Shown piece after piece: positions 27,260 to 33,471 of a stretch of DNA of 36,138 bases. Positions within the stretch are counted from its first letter, which is position 1. Each line of letters opens with the position of its first letter. The position numbers and the translations under genes were made by a program. The notes beneath the pieces are model-generated. The model worked only from the letters and a program-made list of their open reading frames with translations. It was not told where the DNA came from and made no database searches. Origin of the DNA: an uncultured Alistipes sp. (GTDB lineage: Bacteria > Bacteroidota > Bacteroidia > Bacteroidales > Rikenellaceae); NCBI GenBank assembly GCA_944321205.1, contig CALUKK010000056.1, positions 1 to 36,138 of the forward strand. The letters run 5' to 3'.

Positions 27260-27487
27260 TTCGATTCTGCGTTTTAAGATAAAACCACCTTGTTCGGATG
27301 CTCCGAAGAGACTCCCCGGCGGGGAGAGATATTCCGGAATCGGATCGGATGAATCCGGCACATGCGTCGTGCATGTCCTCAAAGCGGAATTCCGGATATT
27401 GTTCGGAGATGTTTGCGATACCTTTTTTCCGCTCCGGCAGCCTGGGCCGGAAGATGCAGGCTACGAAGCCGTGCGACGGAATATTGA
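27260..27487 (-). promoter_or_regulatory. Structured thr leader RNA between leader peptide and thrB
   Basis: This 228-base untranslated stretch is rich in inverted repeats: TTCGGA/TCCGAA (27293-27298 with 27302-27307), CTCCCC/GGGGAG (27312-27317 with 27321-27326), and ACATGC/GCATGT (27360-27365 with 27371-27376). Two mutually exclusive stems also overlap around 27435-27470. The CTCCCC/GGGGAG stem is followed on the minus strand by TCTCTTC and is the best candidate for an attenuator terminator, though its U-tract is poor. A second copy of CTCCGAA near 27400 could compete for the TTCGGAG arm. I infer a regulatory role from the Thr-rich peptide upstream; the exact switch is not resolved. Confidence 0.5.
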
Positions 27488-27667
27488 CTATTCGACCCCC
27501 ACAGGGGTACCGGTACCGGTAGTGACGGTAGTGATCGTGATGGTAAACGTCGTGGAGAGGTGAGCCGCGAAATGACGCGTCCAACCGCAAAGTGTCCGGG
27601 TCGCGAAAAATCCGCAGCCCTGACCGAGTCCCCGACTCTTCAACGTATGGTGCCTTTGAAGATCCAT
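27488..27667 (-). CDS. Threonine-rich leader peptide of the thrBC operon
   Basis: This short frame ends in a striking tract: in the 16 codons from ACG at about 27550 to 27503 there are ten threonine and two isoleucine codons, followed by PVGVE and TAG. E. coli thrL has the same kind of Thr/Ile composition. The role would be to sense charged tRNA-Thr (and tRNA-Ile) by ribosome stalling, not to make a functional protein. The only ATG in frame downstream of the promoter is at 27667, giving 59 residues, almost exactly at the predicted transcription start, so translation may be leaderless. A TTG at 27643 is an alternative start. The frame itself is clear; the start codon is uncertain. Confidence 0.72.
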   Translation of the reverse strand: MDLQRHHTLKSRGLGQGCGFFATRTLCGWTRHFAAHLSTTFTITITTVTTGTGTPVGVE

Positions 27668-27984: not shown

Positions 27985-28015
27985 TTGCTCATTCCGTTTA
28001 AGTTCCCTATCTTTG
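27985..28015 (+). promoter_or_regulatory. Promoter of the ilv leader-ilvDBNC-asnB operon
   Basis: TTG at 27985-27987 (preceded by C) and TATCTTTG at 28008-28015 are 20 bases apart, fitting the Bacteroidota -33/-7 pattern. Transcription should start near 28020, giving a 5' leader of about 20 bases before the leader-peptide ATG and about 205 bases before ilvD. Confidence 0.82.
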
Positions 28016-28041
28016 CTTCACAACCAAAAGGAACGGAAGGC

Positions 28042-28128
28042 ATGATCGCCCTGAATCTTTCGAATAACGTCGTCATTAACATTAACGTGTTGCTCGTGGT
28101 CAATAAAAGGATAACGGGAGGAAGGTGA
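28042..28128 (+). CDS. Branched-chain/asparagine-rich leader peptide of the ilv-asnB operon
   Basis: A 28-codon frame runs from ATG at 28042 to TGA at 28126-28128. It has 13 Ile/Leu/Val codons (positions 2, 4, 6, 10, 11, 12, 14, 16-20 and 24) and six Asn codons (5, 8, 9, 13, 15 and 21): 19 of 28 residues are amino acids made by, or tied to, the operon it precedes. A purine-rich AAAAGGAA lies eight bases before the ATG. The composition resembles the E. coli ilv leader peptides, but the high Asn content does not. Ribosome stalling at these codons would control the antiterminator and terminator that follow. It is too short for ordinary gene callers. Confidence 0.88.
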
Positions 28129-28164
28129 CGTACCTGTTCGATCATACCAAGAACCTTTCTCCCG
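28115..28164 (+). promoter_or_regulatory. Antiterminator pairing of the ilv attenuator
   Basis: CGGGAGGAAGGT (28115-28126) can pair with ACCTTTCTCCCG (28153-28164) over 12 base pairs with one G-U. The second segment is the left arm of the terminator, so the two structures exclude each other. The first segment covers the last leader codons and the first base of its stop codon: a ribosome that finishes the leader masks it and favours the terminator, while one stalled at codons 5-21 leaves it free. Confidence 0.82.
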
Positions 28165-28182
28165 ACCCGGAGAAAGGTTCTT
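28149..28182 (+). terminator. Attenuator terminator upstream of ilvD
   Basis: A perfect 14-bp stem (28149-28162 with 28169-28182) closes a CGACCC loop and is followed by TCGTTTC. The U-tract is interrupted, which may make it a moderate terminator. It lies 20 bases after the leader stop codon and 44 bases before ilvD, the position expected of an attenuator. Confidence 0.83.
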
Positions 28183-28226
28183 TCGTTTCAGAGACCGTGT
28201 CAAAGCGCAAAATGGAACCTCTAAAG

Positions 28227-30050
28227 ATGAAAAACACCCTCAGAAGCGCCACTACCCTCTCGGGTCGGCGCATGGCCGGAGCCCGAAGCCTCTGGCGGGC
28301 AAACGGCATGCGCGAAGAACACTTCGGACGCCCCGTTATCGGAATCGCCAACTCCTTCACACAGTTCGTCCCCGGACACGTGCACCTGCACGACGTCGGA
28401 CAACTCGTCAAACAACGCATCGAAAGCCTCGGATGCTTCGCCGCCGAATTCGACACCATCGCCATCGACGACGGAATCGCCATGGGACACGACGGCATGC
28501 TCTATTCGCTGCCGTCGCGCGAAATCATCGCCGACAGCGTCGAGTACATGGCCAACGCCCACAAGATCGACGCCCTGGTCTGCATCTCCAACTGCGACAA
28601 GATCACACCCGGGATGCTGATGGCCACGATGCGGCTCAACATCCCGACGATCTTCGTGTCGGGCGGTCCGATGGAGGCCGGACGTCTGGGTGAGCGTTCG
28701 CTCGATCTGATCGATGCCATGGTGATGTCGGCCGATGCGAAGTGTTCCGACGAACAGATCGCCCAGGTGGAGCGCGTGGCCTGCCCCGGATGCGGATCCT
28801 GTTCGGGAATGTTCACCGCCACCTCGATGAACTGTCTGACCGAAGCCCTCGGACTTGCACTCCCCGGCAACGGTACGATCGTCGCCACGCACGTCAACCG
28901 CCGCCAGCTCTTCGAAGATGCCGCCGCACTGATCGTCCGCAACGCCGAGCGCTACTACTTCGAGGGCGATGAACGCGTCCTGCCCCGCTCGATCGCCTCG
29001 AAAGCCGCCTTCGAGAATGCCATGTCGCTCGACATCGCCATGGGCGGTTCGACCAACACGGTGCTGCACCTGCTGGCCGTGGCACACGAGGCCGGCGTGG
29101 ACTTCACGATGCAGGACATCGACCGGCTTTCACGGCGCGTTCCGGTGCTCTGCAAGGTGGCACCCAACTCCCACTATCACATTCAGGATGTCAACCGTGC
29201 CGGAGGGATCTTTTCCATTCTCGGAGAACTCGACCGCGGCGGACTGCTCGACACGTCGGTCTGGCGCGTTGACGGCCGCACGCTGGGCGACGCCATCGCC
29301 GCCTGCGACATCCTCAGCCCCACGGCCTCGGATGCCGCCCGTCGTCGGGCGCTGAGTGCTCCGGCTGGTCATTACAGCCGCGAAATGGCCTCGCAACAAA
29401 ACTACTACGAGGCACTCGACACGGATCGTTCCCAGGGGTGTATCCGCGACATTGCACACGCCTACTTCCAGGACGGCGGACTGGCCGTGCTGACGGGCAA
29501 CATCGCCCGTTCGGGATGCGTGGTGAAGACGGCCGGCGTGGACGAGCGTCTCTTCGTCTTCCGGGGACGTGCCCGGGTCTACGAGTCGCAGGAGCAGGCC
29601 ATGCACGGCATCCTGAACGACGAAGTCCATCCGGGCGATGTGGTCGTCATCCGCTATGAGGGTCCGAAAGGCGGCCCGGGCATGCAGGAGATGCTCTACC
29701 CGACGTCATACCTCAAGTCGAAACACCTGGACAAGGTCTGCGCCCTGATCACCGACGGCCGCTTCTCGGGCGGCACCTCGGGACTCTCGATCGGGCACGT
29801 CTCGCCCGAAGCGGCCTCCGGAGGTGAAATCGCCATCGTCCGCACGGGCGACGAGATCGAAATCGATATTCCGAACCGTTCGATCCGCCTGCTGGTCGAC
29901 GACGCACAGATCGCATCCCGCATGGCGGCACAACAGCACTTCCGCCCGGAGGCCCGCGACCGACAGGTTCCCAAGTCGCTCCGCGCCTACGCCCAACTGG
30001 TCAGTTCGGCAGACCGCGGGGCCGTGCGGATCCTCGATGACGAGGAGTGA
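28227..30050 (+). CDS. ilvD: Dihydroxy-acid dehydratase
   Basis: IlvD dehydrates 2,3-dihydroxy-isovalerate and -methylvalerate to the keto acids for valine and isoleucine. The protein has 607 residues from the ATG at 28227 ([20 protein letters not shown]), which aligns with the known family start. The frame is open further upstream through the terminator hairpin, but that part is leader RNA. The iron-sulfur cysteines are visible in SNCDKITPG and [13 protein letters not shown]. This is a full-length E. coli-type enzyme and the first structural gene behind the attenuator, 23 bases before ilvB. Confidence 0.97.
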
Positions 30051-30073: not shown

Positions 30074-31813
30074 ATGAATCGAAACATGAACTCTTCATCC
30101 GACGAAACACAACAAACGGTCGACGGCCCCCGCATGACAGGCTCGCAGGCCCTGCTCGAATCCTTCCTGATCGAAGGCGTCGACACGCTGTTCGGCTACC
30201 CCGGAGGTGCCATCATCCCGGTCTACGACGCCTTGTATGACTATCGCGACCGGCTGCGCCACATTCTGGTCCGACACGAACAGGGGGCTGTACACGCCGC
30301 ACAGGGCTATGCCCGGGTCAGCGGCCGCGTGGGGGTCTGTCTGGTGACTTCGGGACCCGGAGCCACGAACACCGTAACGGGGCTGGCCGACGCCCTGATG
30401 GACTCCACTCCGCTGGTGCTCGTCACCGGACAGGTCGGCTCGTCGCTGCTCGGAACCGATGCCTTCCAGGAGACCAACTTTGTCGGCATCACGCAGGCCG
30501 TCACCAAGTGGAACTGCCAGGTCAAACGCGCCGAGGAGATCCCCGCAGCCATGGCCAAGGCCTTCTACGTGGCTCGCTCCGGACGCCCGGGCCCCGTGGT
30601 CGTCGACATCACGAAAGACGCACAGTGCGGTTCGGCACCCTTTCACTACGAGAAAATCACCTCGATCCGCAGTTACGTACCCGTTCCGGAGCCCGATCCC
30701 GCACGACTGGACGAGGCGGCCCGGTTGATCGACGAGGCCCGGCGTCCGCTGGCCATGGTGGGCCAGGGTGTCATTCTCGGGAATGCCGAAGCCGAATTGA
30801 AGGCCTTTCTCGAGAAAAGCGGTGTACCCGTCGCCTCGACACTCCTGGGATTGTCGGCCGTACCGACCGACGCCCCGCAATACGTCGGCATGCTCGGCAT
30901 GCACGGCAACTACGGCCCCAACATCCGCAACCGGGATTGCGACCTGCTGATCGCCATCGGAATGCGTTTCGACGACCGCGTGACGGGATCGCCGGCACAC
31001 TTCGGCGAAAACGCCCGGATCATCCACCTGGAGATCGACCCCGCGGAGATCGGCAAGATCATCCACGCCGACGTTCCCGTGACGGGAGACGTGCGGCAAA
31101 CCCTGCCGCAACTGACCGAACGGATCCACAAGCGTCGTCACGACGCGTGGATCGCCGGATTCCGCGACTGCGACCGCATCGAACAGGAACGGGTGATCCG
31201 TCCGGCCCTGCACCCCTCCGGACCGAGGATCCACATGGGCGAGGCCGTCGACACCGTCGCCCGGGCCTATGCCAACGATGCCGTGGTCGTGACCGACGTC
31301 GGACAGCAGCAGATGTTTGCCGCCCGTTACTTCGGATTCCGCAGGACCCGCAGCCTTGTCACCTCGGGAGGCCTCGGAACGATGGGGTTCGGACTCCCGG
31401 CCGCCATCGGTGCCAAACTCGGGGCGCCGGATCGTGACGTGGTGCTCTTCGTCGGCGACGGCGGGCTGCAGATGACCATTCAGGAGCTGGGGACGATCTT
31501 TCAGTCGAAGATTCCCGTCAAGATCGTTCTGCTGAACAACTCGTTCCTCGGCATGGTCCGCCAATGGCAGGAGCTCTTCTACGATTCGCGCTACTCCTTC
31601 ACCGAACTGGTGAATCCCGATTTCGGGATGATCGCCCGCGCAAACGGTCTCGCCTACCGCTGTGTCGAACATCGCGAAGAGCTGTCCGACGCCGTAGCCG
31701 AAATGAAAGCCGCAAAAGGCGCCTATCTCCTGGAGGTCCGCGTCGACAGACAGGAGAATGTCTTCCCGATGGTACCCGCCGGAGCCCCCGTGGCAGAGAT
31801 CCGGCTCGAATAA
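30074..31813 (+). CDS. ilvB: Acetolactate synthase large subunit
   Basis: This 579-residue ThDP enzyme condenses pyruvate with pyruvate or 2-oxobutyrate, the first committed step to valine, leucine and isoleucine. The catalytic glutamate lies in VRHEQGAVHAAQGYAR. The ThDP/Mg motif starts at GDGGLQMTIQEL and ends with LNNSFLGMVRQWQ. The three-domain layout and length are normal for the acetohydroxyacid synthase catalytic subunit. An alternative ATG 12 bases downstream is possible. The regulatory subunit gene follows after 13 bases. Confidence 0.96.
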   Translation: MNRNMNSSSDETQQTVDGPRMTGSQALLESFLIEGVDTLFGYPGGAIIPVYDALYDYRDRLRHILVRHEQGAVHAAQGYARVSGRVGVCLVTSGPGATNTVTGLADALMDSTPLVLVTGQVGSSLLGTDAFQETNFVGITQAVTKWNCQVKRAEEIPAAMAKAFYVARSGRPGPVVVDITKDAQCGSAPFHYEKITSIRSYVPVPEPDPARLDEAARLIDEARRPLAMVGQGVILGNAEAELKAFLEKSGVPVASTLLGLSAVPTDAPQYVGMLGMHGNYGPNIRNRDCDLLIAIGMRFDDRVTGSPAHFGENARIIHLEIDPAEIGKIIHADVPVTGDVRQTLPQLTERIHKRRHDAWIAGFRDCDRIEQERVIRPALHPSGPRIHMGEAVDTVARAYANDAVVVTDVGQQQMFAARYFGFRRTRSLVTSGGLGTMGFGLPAAIGAKLGAPDRDVVLFVGDGGLQMTIQELGTIFQSKIPVKIVLLNNSFLGMVRQWQELFYDSRYSFTELVNPDFGMIARANGLAYRCVEHREELSDAVAEMKAAKGAYLLEVRVDRQENVFPMVPAGAPVAEIRLE

Positions 31814-31826
31814 ACCCCTTTGGATC

Positions 31827-32390
31827 ATGGAAACGGAACAGGAATACATCATCACCGTATTTTCGGAAAACAAGGTCGGACTGCTGAGCCAGATCACCAC
31901 GGTCTTCACCTGCCGGAACGTCAACATCGAAAGTCTGACCACCTCGGAATCGGCCCTGCAAGGCATCCACAAGTTCACGATCGTCGTGCGGACCACACCC
32001 GAAACCGTACAAAAGGTCGTACGACAGATCGAGAAGAAGATCGACGTGCTGAAGACCTTCGTCTATACCCCCGAGGAGGTCGTCCAGCAGGAGATCGCCC
32101 TCTACAAGGTGACACGCAGCAACAGCGTCGAACAGCTCGTCCGCCGGCACAACGTCCGCATCCTGGAGATCGACACCGACTATATCGTCGTCGAAAAAAC
32201 CGGACACAAGGAGGAGACCCAGCAACTCTTCCGGCTGCTGCAACCCTATGGCGTACAACAGTTCGTACGCAGCGGCACGGTAGCCGTCATCAAATCACGG
32301 CGCGAACTGCTCAACGAATACCTCGAAGAGCTGGAAAAGTTGCGCCGCGAGAGCGAGGCCGCGGCCTCCGAAACAGAAAAATCCAATTGA
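31827..32390 (+). CDS. ilvN: Acetolactate synthase small (regulatory) subunit
   Basis: This 187-residue protein starts at the ATG at 31827 (METEQEYIITVFSENKVGLL), with an N-terminal ACT domain at about residues 6-80 and a second regulatory domain after it. It is nearer to the longer IlvH type than to E. coli IlvN. It binds the large subunit, raises its activity and normally gives feedback inhibition by valine. The C-terminus is charged and rich in Glu/Arg/Ala. It sits between ilvB and ilvC with short gaps, as expected for one operon. Confidence 0.94.
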   Translation: METEQEYIITVFSENKVGLLSQITTVFTCRNVNIESLTTSESALQGIHKFTIVVRTTPETVQKVVRQIEKKIDVLKTFVYTPEEVVQQEIALYKVTRSNSVEQLVRRHNVRILEIDTDYIVVEKTGHKEETQQLFRLLQPYGVQQFVRSGTVAVIKSRRELLNEYLEELEKLRRESEAAASETEKSN

Positions 32391-32424: not shown

Positions 32425-33471
32425 ATGGCAAAGATCAATTTCGGCGGCGTGGAAGAGAACGTCGTAACCCGCGAAGAGTTTCCTCTGAAAAAAGCGCTCG
32501 AAACCCTCAAGGACGAGACCATCGCCGTCATCGGATACGGCGTGCAGGGCCCCGGACAGTCGCTCAACCTGCGTGACAACGGGTTCCGCGTCATCGTCGG
32601 TCAGCGCAAGGGTACCAAGAGCTGGGACAAGGCTGTCGCCGACGGCTGGGTCCCGGGCGAGACGCTCTTCGAGATCGAGGAGGCCGCCCAGCGCGGTACG
32701 ATCATCCAGTATCTGCTTTCGGATGCCGGACAGATCGCCGTATGGCCCACGATCAAAAAGCACCTCACTCCGGGCAAGGCCCTCTACTTCTCGCACGGCT
32801 TCGGGATCACCTACAAGGATCGTACGGGAATCGTTCCCCCGGCCGATGTCGACGTCATTCTGATCGCCCCGAAGGGCTCGGGAACCTCGCTGCGGCGGAT
32901 GTTCCTCCAGGGCCGCGGTCTGAACTCCAGCTACGCCGTCTTCCAGGATGCCACGGGACACGCCATGGAGCGCGTCATCGCCCTCGGAATCGGCGTCGGA
33001 TCGGGCTACCTCTTCGAGACCGACTTCCAGCGCGAGGTCTACTCCGACCTGACCGGTGAGCGCGGTACGCTGATGGGTGCCATCCAGGGCATCTTCGCCG
33101 CCCAGTACGACACGCTGCGCGCACACGGACACACCCCCTCGGAGGCCTTCAACGAAACCGTCGAGGAGCTCACGCAGTCGCTCATGCCGCTGGTGGCCGA
33201 AAACGGCATGGACTGGATGTATGCCAACTGCTCGACCACGGCACAGCGCGGTGCCCTGGATTGGTGGAAGCGCTTCCGCGACGCCACGAAGCCCGTCTTC
33301 GAGGAGCTCTACGAGAGTGTCCGCAGCGGCAACGAGGCCCAGATCTCGATCGACGCCAACAGCAAGCCCGACTACCGCGTAAAACTCAACGAGGAGCTGC
33401 GCGAGATGCGCGAAAGCGAAATGTGGCAGGCCGGCGCCGTCGTCCGCAAACTCCGCCCCGAAAACAACTGA
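32425..33471 (+). CDS. ilvC: Ketol-acid reductoisomerase
   Basis: This 348-residue enzyme isomerises and reduces acetolactate or acetohydroxybutyrate with NAD(P)H and Mg2+. The N-terminal Rossmann motif reads GYGVQGPGQSLNLRDNG, followed by GQRKGTKSWDKA, whose basic residues suggest NADPH. Length places it with the short (class I) enzymes. The C-terminal helical domain has the expected acidic metal ligands in the SDLTGERGTLMGA and ETVEELTQSLMPL blocks. It completes the ilvDBNC set, and asnB follows after 21 bases. Confidence 0.96.
   Translation: MAKINFGGVEENVVTREEFPLKKALETLKDETIAVIGYGVQGPGQSLNLRDNGFRVIVGQRKGTKSWDKAVADGWVPGETLFEIEEAAQRGTIIQYLLSDAGQIAVWPTIKKHLTPGKALYFSHGFGITYKDRTGIVPPADVDVILIAPKGSGTSLRRMFLQGRGLNSSYAVFQDATGHAMERVIALGIGVGSGYLFETDFQREVYSDLTGERGTLMGAIQGIFAAQYDTLRAHGHTPSEAFNETVEELTQSLMPLVAENGMDWMYANCSTTAQRGALDWWKRFRDATKPVFEELYESVRSGNEAQISIDANSKPDYRVKLNEELREMRESEMWQAGAVVRKLRPENN

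Follow-up and report, generated by a model that had tools for sequence, protein, structure and literature searches.

The window analyzed here, the whole 36,138-nucleotide stretch of contig CALUKK010000056.1 from an uncultured Alistipes sp. (GenBank assembly GCA_944321205.1), carries the operon ilvD-ilvB-ilvN-ilvC, which is followed by asnB. Upstream of ilvD, a promoter, a leader frame, an antiterminator arm, and a terminator stem are arranged in that order on the plus strand between positions 27985 and 28188. The promoter and the reading frames are as follows.

27985 to 28015, plus strand: promoter, TTG (-33 region) and TATCTTTG (-7)
28042 to 28128, plus strand: leader open reading frame of 28 codons, 13 of them for Ile, Leu, or Val; ATG at 28042, stop codon TGA at 28126-28128
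28227 to 30050, plus strand: ilvD, dihydroxy-acid dehydratase, with a putative start codon (NCBIfam PRK12448, 1030 bits; TIGR00110, 778 bits)
30074 to 31813, plus strand: ilvB, acetolactate synthase large subunit (TIGR00118, 695 bits)
31758 to 32390, plus strand: ilvN/ilvH, acetolactate synthase small subunit, the true start lying inside the open reading frame (TIGR00119, 93 bits)
32425 to 33471, plus strand: ilvC, ketol-acid reductoisomerase (TIGR00465, 318 bits)

The promoter elements are the TTG at 27985-27987 and TATCTTTG at 28008-28015, which are of the Bacteroidota type. Transcription would start near 28020-28024. A first-pass annotation of this DNA had already placed a promoter upstream of a 28-codon leader with 13 Ile/Leu/Val codons. 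Both features were borne out, and its coordinates for the ilvD leader region hold. The pattern TAnnTTTG with a TTG 14-26 nt before it is found at all 24 ilvD loci identified in the genus. A 211-nt fold of the source locus shows a modest excess of stability over chance (z = -1.9, with 4 of 200 shuffles equally stable), but all parts of the device recur at the 24 genus loci, which confirms that it exceeds chance. The leader codons expected of this class of attenuator are present at the source locus (13 of 28), at 24/24 genus loci and, at p ≤ 0.05, in 50 of 69 regions from the order. The genes that follow serve the same amino acids at the source, order, and motif-scan loci.

Alternative pairings of the leader RNA

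The segments of the leader RNA, numbered 1 to 4, and the helices that surround them are listed below.

28060 to 28066, plus strand: outer protector helix, 5' strand (UCGAAUA), paired with 28135-28141; covaries in the genus
28069 to 28076, plus strand: middle protector helix, 5' strand, paired with 28125-28133 according to folding
28093 to 28101, plus strand: segment 1 (CUCGUGGUC; codons Leu-Val-Val), paired with 28110-28112 and 28114-28118; invariant across the 24 loci at all but one of its nine bases
28115 to 28126, plus strand: segment 2, the antiterminator arm CGGGAGGAAGGU, paired with 28153-28164
28135 to 28141, plus strand: outer protector helix, 3' strand, paired with 28060-28066
28149 to 28164, plus strand: segment 3, of which 28153-28164 pairs with segment 2 and 28149-28162 forms the terminator 5' arm
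28169 to 28188, plus strand: segment 4, the terminator 3' arm (28169-28182) followed by a broken U-tract

The terminator stem, formed by 28149-28162 and 28169-28182, contains 14 pairs without a mismatch and has a calculated energy of -21.7 kcal/mol. It ends 44 bases before ilvD. An intrinsic terminator is thus positioned between the leader and the first gene of the source locus, although its U-tract, TTCTTTCGTTTC, is broken by C's. Segment 3 can pair instead with segment 2 (28115-28126 with 28153-28164), giving a mutually exclusive antiterminator of 12 bp, one of which is G-U, whose 5' arm would be covered by a ribosome at the stop codon. The perfect 14-bp stem and the 12-bp pairing had both been recognized at first pass. 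A third structure, the protector, which is built from the leader frame and the stretch just behind it and also sequesters segment 2, had been overlooked. Its inner helix, 28093-28101 with 28110-28118, takes in the first bases of segment 2. In this protector or pause hairpin (1:2), the outer helix covaries and the inner helix is nearly invariant.

Conservation and covariation within the genus

An IlvD match was found in 24 of 101 sampled genomes of the genus, the source genome included; many of the genomes are incomplete. In all 24, the arm CGGGAG[AG][AG]AGGT lies 85-173 nt before the IlvD match, accompanied by a leader that measures 18-28 codons when the nearest ATG is taken as its start, the TAnnTTTG element with its preceding TTG, and a terminator. 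As judged with a short motif list, a Shine-Dalgarno-like site is absent from 21 of the 24 leaders, that of the source being among the three with one. The leader frame and both pairings are thus kept at every genus locus, and they are recognizable at 47 of 69 loci from the order; the lack of conservation in relatives that the first-pass annotation had named as grounds for rejection was not observed.

The 77 genomes without an IlvD match include 30 of the 38 with at least 90% completeness and at most 5% contamination. Branched-chain amino acid synthesis by the IlvD route seems to be often absent in the genus.

An RNA model, R1, was built from the 24 genus ilvD loci. In the 101 genomes it yields exactly 24 matches of at least 92 bits, one at the ilvD locus of each of the 24 ilvD-bearing genomes. 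No secondary match in this set scores above 36 bits. Among the 77 genomes lacking ilvD, 11 give weak matches (E ≤ 1), of which the strongest scores 33 bits (E = 9e-4). The 24 loci match the model because they served as its training set; the score gap to the other 77 genomes is not given by construction.

Pairing was counted over the 24 sequences for structures that had been named by hand, and for that reason the counts lean towards the attenuator reading; RNAalifold, applied to the first genus alignment, found only the 2:3 and inner helices. The covariation score of the structure as a whole was attained by 0 of 500 shuffles, and a shift of the partners by 1-3 columns lowered the paired cells from 93% to 40-59%. 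The outer protector helix displays two-sided changes in 6 of its 7 pairs, with 85.7% of cells paired. The inner helix, by comparison, is paired in 99.5% of cells with no two-sided change, and gives no covariation because it hardly varies. Within the nine bases CTCGTNGTC, only the unpaired base differs among the loci (G in 17, C in 5, A in 2). The Leu codon of segment 1 is CTC in 24/24 loci whereas the other leader Leu codons are CTC in only 3 of 79, a difference favored by the use of CTCGT as the search string that located the segment.

The 2:3 helix is paired in 99.6% of cells. The first-pass annotation had proposed looking for compensatory changes in both stems. The terminator does covary, as does the additional outer protector helix, but the antiterminator shows no two-sided change among the 24 loci. 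Where strand 3 of the terminator has to fit strand 2 as well, U-A has become U-G through strand 4 in 29 cells, and one cell is changed on strand 3 (L020); some rows misaligned by MAFFT at the terminator 3' arm were counted as unpaired. A near-fixed strand 3 facing a drifting strand 4 fits a strand 3 that would be held by two partners.

The position of the stop codon relative to segment 2 takes two forms. At 19 of the 24 loci the leader terminates ahead of segment 2, its stop codon starting 3 nt upstream of the arm in 18 of them and 6 nt upstream in L006. At the source locus and four near relatives (L001-L005 in all), the frame is shifted relative to this stop and extends across segment 2, so that its own stop codon shares only the last base of the arm. 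The overlap between the stop codon and the antiterminator arm proposed at first pass is thus present at the source locus, by one base only, and in just 5 of 24 genus loci; as a conserved geometry it was dropped, the frame ending before the arm in the other 19. With either stop position, a ribosome terminating on the leader would still cover segment 2.

Computed effect of ribosome position on the pairing of segment 3

A ribosome of ~31 nt was set on the leader codon by codon, the transcript was cut before segment 4, and the upstream pairing of segment 3 was scored. Partial transcripts were adopted after folding of the finished transcript had given no switch: at equilibrium the terminator dominates (0.91-0.92) at every ribosome position. 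Given that the terminator wins on the finished transcript regardless of the ribosome, the switch must be kinetic.

For the source locus, the upstream pairing of segment 3 is 0.91-0.99 with the ribosome at codons 1-21 and 0.16-0.43 from codon 22 to the stop. This agrees with the original proposal that a stalled ribosome frees the arm and one at the stop covers it, except that the range is codons 1-21 rather than 5-21. Across the 24 genus loci, the locus means are 0.90-1.00 on Ile/Leu/Val codons versus 0.01-0.61 at the stop, with overall means of 0.98 and 0.32, respectively, and a difference greater than 0.3 in every locus. For 47 loci from the order, the corresponding values are 0.69 and 0.28; the difference has the right sign in 44 and is larger than 0.3 in 32.

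When the ribosome is omitted, the upstream pairing of segment 3 in the partial transcript is 0.99 at the source and 0.25-1.00 in the genus. Since the ribosome-free transcript often favors the upstream pairing, default termination is unsupported by the energies and rests on folding order. Note that the same calculation applied to E. coli ilvL gave 0.26-0.78 over the codons and 0.62 at the stop, without a clean switch, and given this noise on a known attenuator the calculation is a weak tool.

Distribution in the order and beyond

R1 was run without reference to gene content on 393 genomes of the order, 174 of which gave matches at E ≤ 0.1, and the best 30 loci were examined. One was the source; the 29 new loci comprised 22 before ilvD, four before leuA, and three elsewhere. 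These last three (L044, L045, and L048) are unrelated hairpins, which appear among the R1 matches already at E values of 1.7e-5 to 3.6e-5.

The four leuA genes (2-isopropylmalate synthase; L034, L040, L046, and L049), from other families of the order, are preceded by a similar Ile/Leu-rich leader and a terminator.

A separate search for IlvD detected it in 168 of the 393 genomes. From the 167 outside the source, 69 upstream regions were taken, namely those of the 29 best IlvD matches and 40 chosen across families; some genomes occur in both the IlvD and the R1 routes, and some regions are closely related, so that the 69 are not independent counts. Each region was asked for a terminator-like hairpin, a leader denser in Ile/Leu/Val than 95% of dinucleotide shuffles, and an arm matching the 5' side of the hairpin better than 95%. 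The hairpin was found in 57 regions under a relaxed rule, the leader in 50, the arm in 50, and all three in 47; with a stricter U-tract rule the last figure is 43. By contrast, all three were found in 0 of 69 reverse strands and in 1 of 58 and 0 of 58 flanking ends. The arm of a given locus pairs with its own hairpin at a mean of -15.2 kcal/mol versus -10.9 kcal/mol with those of other loci, and falls in the best 10% for 34 of 57 loci and in the best 5% for 19.

Of the 22 ilvD upstream regions that fail, several have a leader and hairpin by eye (L071, L073, L107, and L117, for example), and in eight no leader was seen by eye (L057, L085, L090, L102, L111, L113, L121, and L124). The attenuator is not universal, given that L085, which belongs to the source's own family, is without it.

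When 84,980 species genomes were scanned for the exact motif, 44 stretches were returned, 37 before ilvD and seven before ilvB. The records concerned are all labelled Alistipes, Rikenellaceae, or Bacteroidaceae; as its pattern was derived from the genus, the scan is silent on wider spread. In the 37, the ilvD start lies 34-127 nt 3' of the motif.

In the remaining seven stretches, all on public metagenome-assembled contigs (L134, L141, L145, L158, L159, L164, and L168), ilvB takes the place of ilvD after the attenuator. Six of the seven were identified by tblastn. The L159 frame is short, without an NCBIfam match, and was recognized by its first residues only.

At the class level, this type of IlvD was found in 9 of 295 genomes at E ≤ 1e-100, a threshold that excludes more distant types, and all nine belong to the source's order. 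R1 run over 291 class genomes gave three matches at E ≤ 1e-4: the source locus, a second within its order, and L175, from outside that order, where no open reading frame of 100 amino acids starts within 700 nt downstream of the hairpin on the same strand.

Alternative explanations

One alternative is an unregulated terminator that simply ends transcription early, or else the 3' end of a small RNA, preceded by an Ile/Leu/Val-rich frame through chance. The hairpin is strong (-21.7 kcal/mol) and wins at equilibrium, but the leader and a matching arm accompany it in 24/24 genus and 47/69 order loci, compared with 1 of the 185 control regions, and strand 3 hardly changes, the drift through G-U pairs being on strand 4. 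We consider this explanation very improbable.

An equally slim chance is given to a leader acting mainly on translation or mRNA stability, either through reinitiation at ilvD or through Rho, with the hairpin secondary. Reinitiation has been proposed for leader genes near a main gene, the distances in Bacteroidetes peaking at 11-14 bp (PMC4833913). Here, however, the leader stop lies ~98 nt before ilvD with the terminator in between, and within the genus the stop, segment 2, and the hairpin remain in register. Direct sensing of the amino acid or its tRNA by a metabolite riboswitch or a T-box is scarcely credible: although the outer protector helix covaries, as in an aptamer, the window contains no Rfam family at gathering score, part of the covarying structure falls within a coding frame, and the Ile/Leu/Val content of that frame is kept in the genus and in much of the order.

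Comparison with known systems

The search of the whole window against Rfam 15 returned 0 families at the gathering score, and for the leader region at E up to 5 only three weak matches, all to eukaryotic families. The closest known systems include those of E. coli ilvL, leuL, and thrL. In the E. coli ilvXGMEDA operon, ilvL has a competing antiterminator and a protector. As in Alistipes, an Ile/Leu/Val-rich leader precedes a branched-chain amino acid operon with a strong terminator hairpin behind it, as seen when ilvL was folded. The likeness to classical enterobacterial attenuation noted in the first-pass annotation is therefore supported, and the Alistipes device would work as enterobacterial branched-chain amino acid attenuators do. 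The two differ in leader length (18-28 codons in Alistipes versus 32 in ilvL), in the sequences of leader and hairpin, which by reading alone are plainly other, and in that the Alistipes operon starts with ilvD and most of its leaders, the source's excepted, are without a Shine-Dalgarno-like site.

Among the matches listed in the literature search, which lay mostly outside subscription papers, no branched-chain amino acid leader-peptide attenuator of Bacteroidota was described. Vitreschak et al., in FEMS Microbiol Lett 234:357 of 2004, reportedly mention Bacteroidetes candidates. In a transcriptome study of Flavobacterium psychrophilum, a member of the same phylum, "strong clues" are given for leader-peptide attenuation before amino acid operons; the 5' elements of pheA and hisG are among those named in the section concerned, which has no ilv example (PMC9723704). 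Small open reading frames reminiscent of leader peptides were reported in Bacteroides thetaiotaomicron, the term "ilv" being absent from the main text (PMC7366714). The Bacteroid-trp RNA, RF01692, is a predicted cis-regulatory RNA of Bacteroidetes that is included in Rfam (PMC2864571). It shares this description with the ilvD leader, but the ilvD leader is unmatched by its model: RF01692 has no match in the window and none in the source genome at E ≤ 0.001, and it exceeded the cut-off in 1 of 31 genomes. The Corynebacterium ilvBNC attenuator, also with a leader peptide and hairpins before a branched-chain amino acid operon, belongs to another phylum and another operon (PMC11857589, PMC10272879). 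The first-pass remark that Bacteroidota examples are little described is fair, provided that it is not taken to mean undescribed, as PMC9723704 and the Bacteroid-trp report (RF01692; PMC2864571) attest. The kind of attenuator is known and the phylum is not virgin ground; what seems to be absent from the Rfam catalogue is this family, with the protector, distribution, and host operons described here. The predicted attenuator recurs widely in an order where such a mechanism is hardly described.

Proposed mechanism

We conclude that the region upstream of ilvD is, with high probability, a ribosome-mediated transcription attenuator of the ilvD operon, predicted from its sequence to sense the charging of Ile, Leu, and Val tRNAs. 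Its anatomy, conservation, and position, the covariation of the outer protector helix and of the terminator, and the computed switch in segment 3 pairing support this reading. The transcription start, the actual termination, the amino acid response, and the default state that we infer would be as follows. RNA polymerase would start near 28020, with a ribosome following on the leader. When branched-chain amino acids are plentiful, the ribosome would reach the stop codon and cover segment 2, leaving segments 3 and 4 to pair and transcription to end near 28190. When one of them is scarce, a stall on the Ile/Leu/Val codons would melt the protector and free segment 2, such that 2:3 could form before segment 4 exists and the operon would be transcribed. 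If no ribosome is present, the protector, with its outer, middle, and inner helices, probably holds segment 2, making termination the putative default.

We also considered a broader proposal, for which we see roughly even chances: one homologous attenuator, as old as the order, would form a branched-chain amino acid regulon (ilvD, ilvB, and leuA) in Bacteroidota, and a ribosome started without a Shine-Dalgarno-like site would trail the polymerase closely enough to decide termination within ~150 nt. Bacteroidota largely do without Shine-Dalgarno pairing. As the leaders mostly lack such a site (21/24 in the genus), a ribosome that dispenses with it would have to keep close to the polymerase. Attenuation of this type requires that ribosome and polymerase move together, and the ilvD leader provides a direct test of their coupling in Bacteroidota. 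The phylum gains a well-defined, widespread attenuator family with a searchable model and named segments 1-4, one that bears on the choice of these bacteria between making and scavenging branched-chain amino acids.

Other features of the window

Divergent from the ilvD operon lies thrB, which has a threonine-rich leader frame of its own at 27488-27667 on the minus strand, ending ...TTFTITITTVTTGTGTPVGVE*. Ten loci have a divergent thrB. The frame ends in PVGV plus one residue in all ten and is dense in Thr in nine (L003 is weaker). After the stop of the thrB leader, at 27429-27450, is a conserved hairpin, CCGGCCNAGGCTGCCGGAGCGG, without a U-tract; nine of the 101 genus genomes carry a single exact copy of CCGGCCNAGGCTGCCGGAGCGG. 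In only two of the ten loci (L001 and L005) was the thrB leader found to be followed by a hairpin with a T-rich tail, and this leader may attenuate via Rho or at translation. Finally, positions 94-20428 of the window, on the minus strand, are occupied by a polysaccharide-utilization-like cluster with two SusD proteins, two TonB-dependent receptors, a GH16 enzyme, a sialic-acid-type acetylesterase, an SSF symporter, and an FAD-dependent oxidoreductase.
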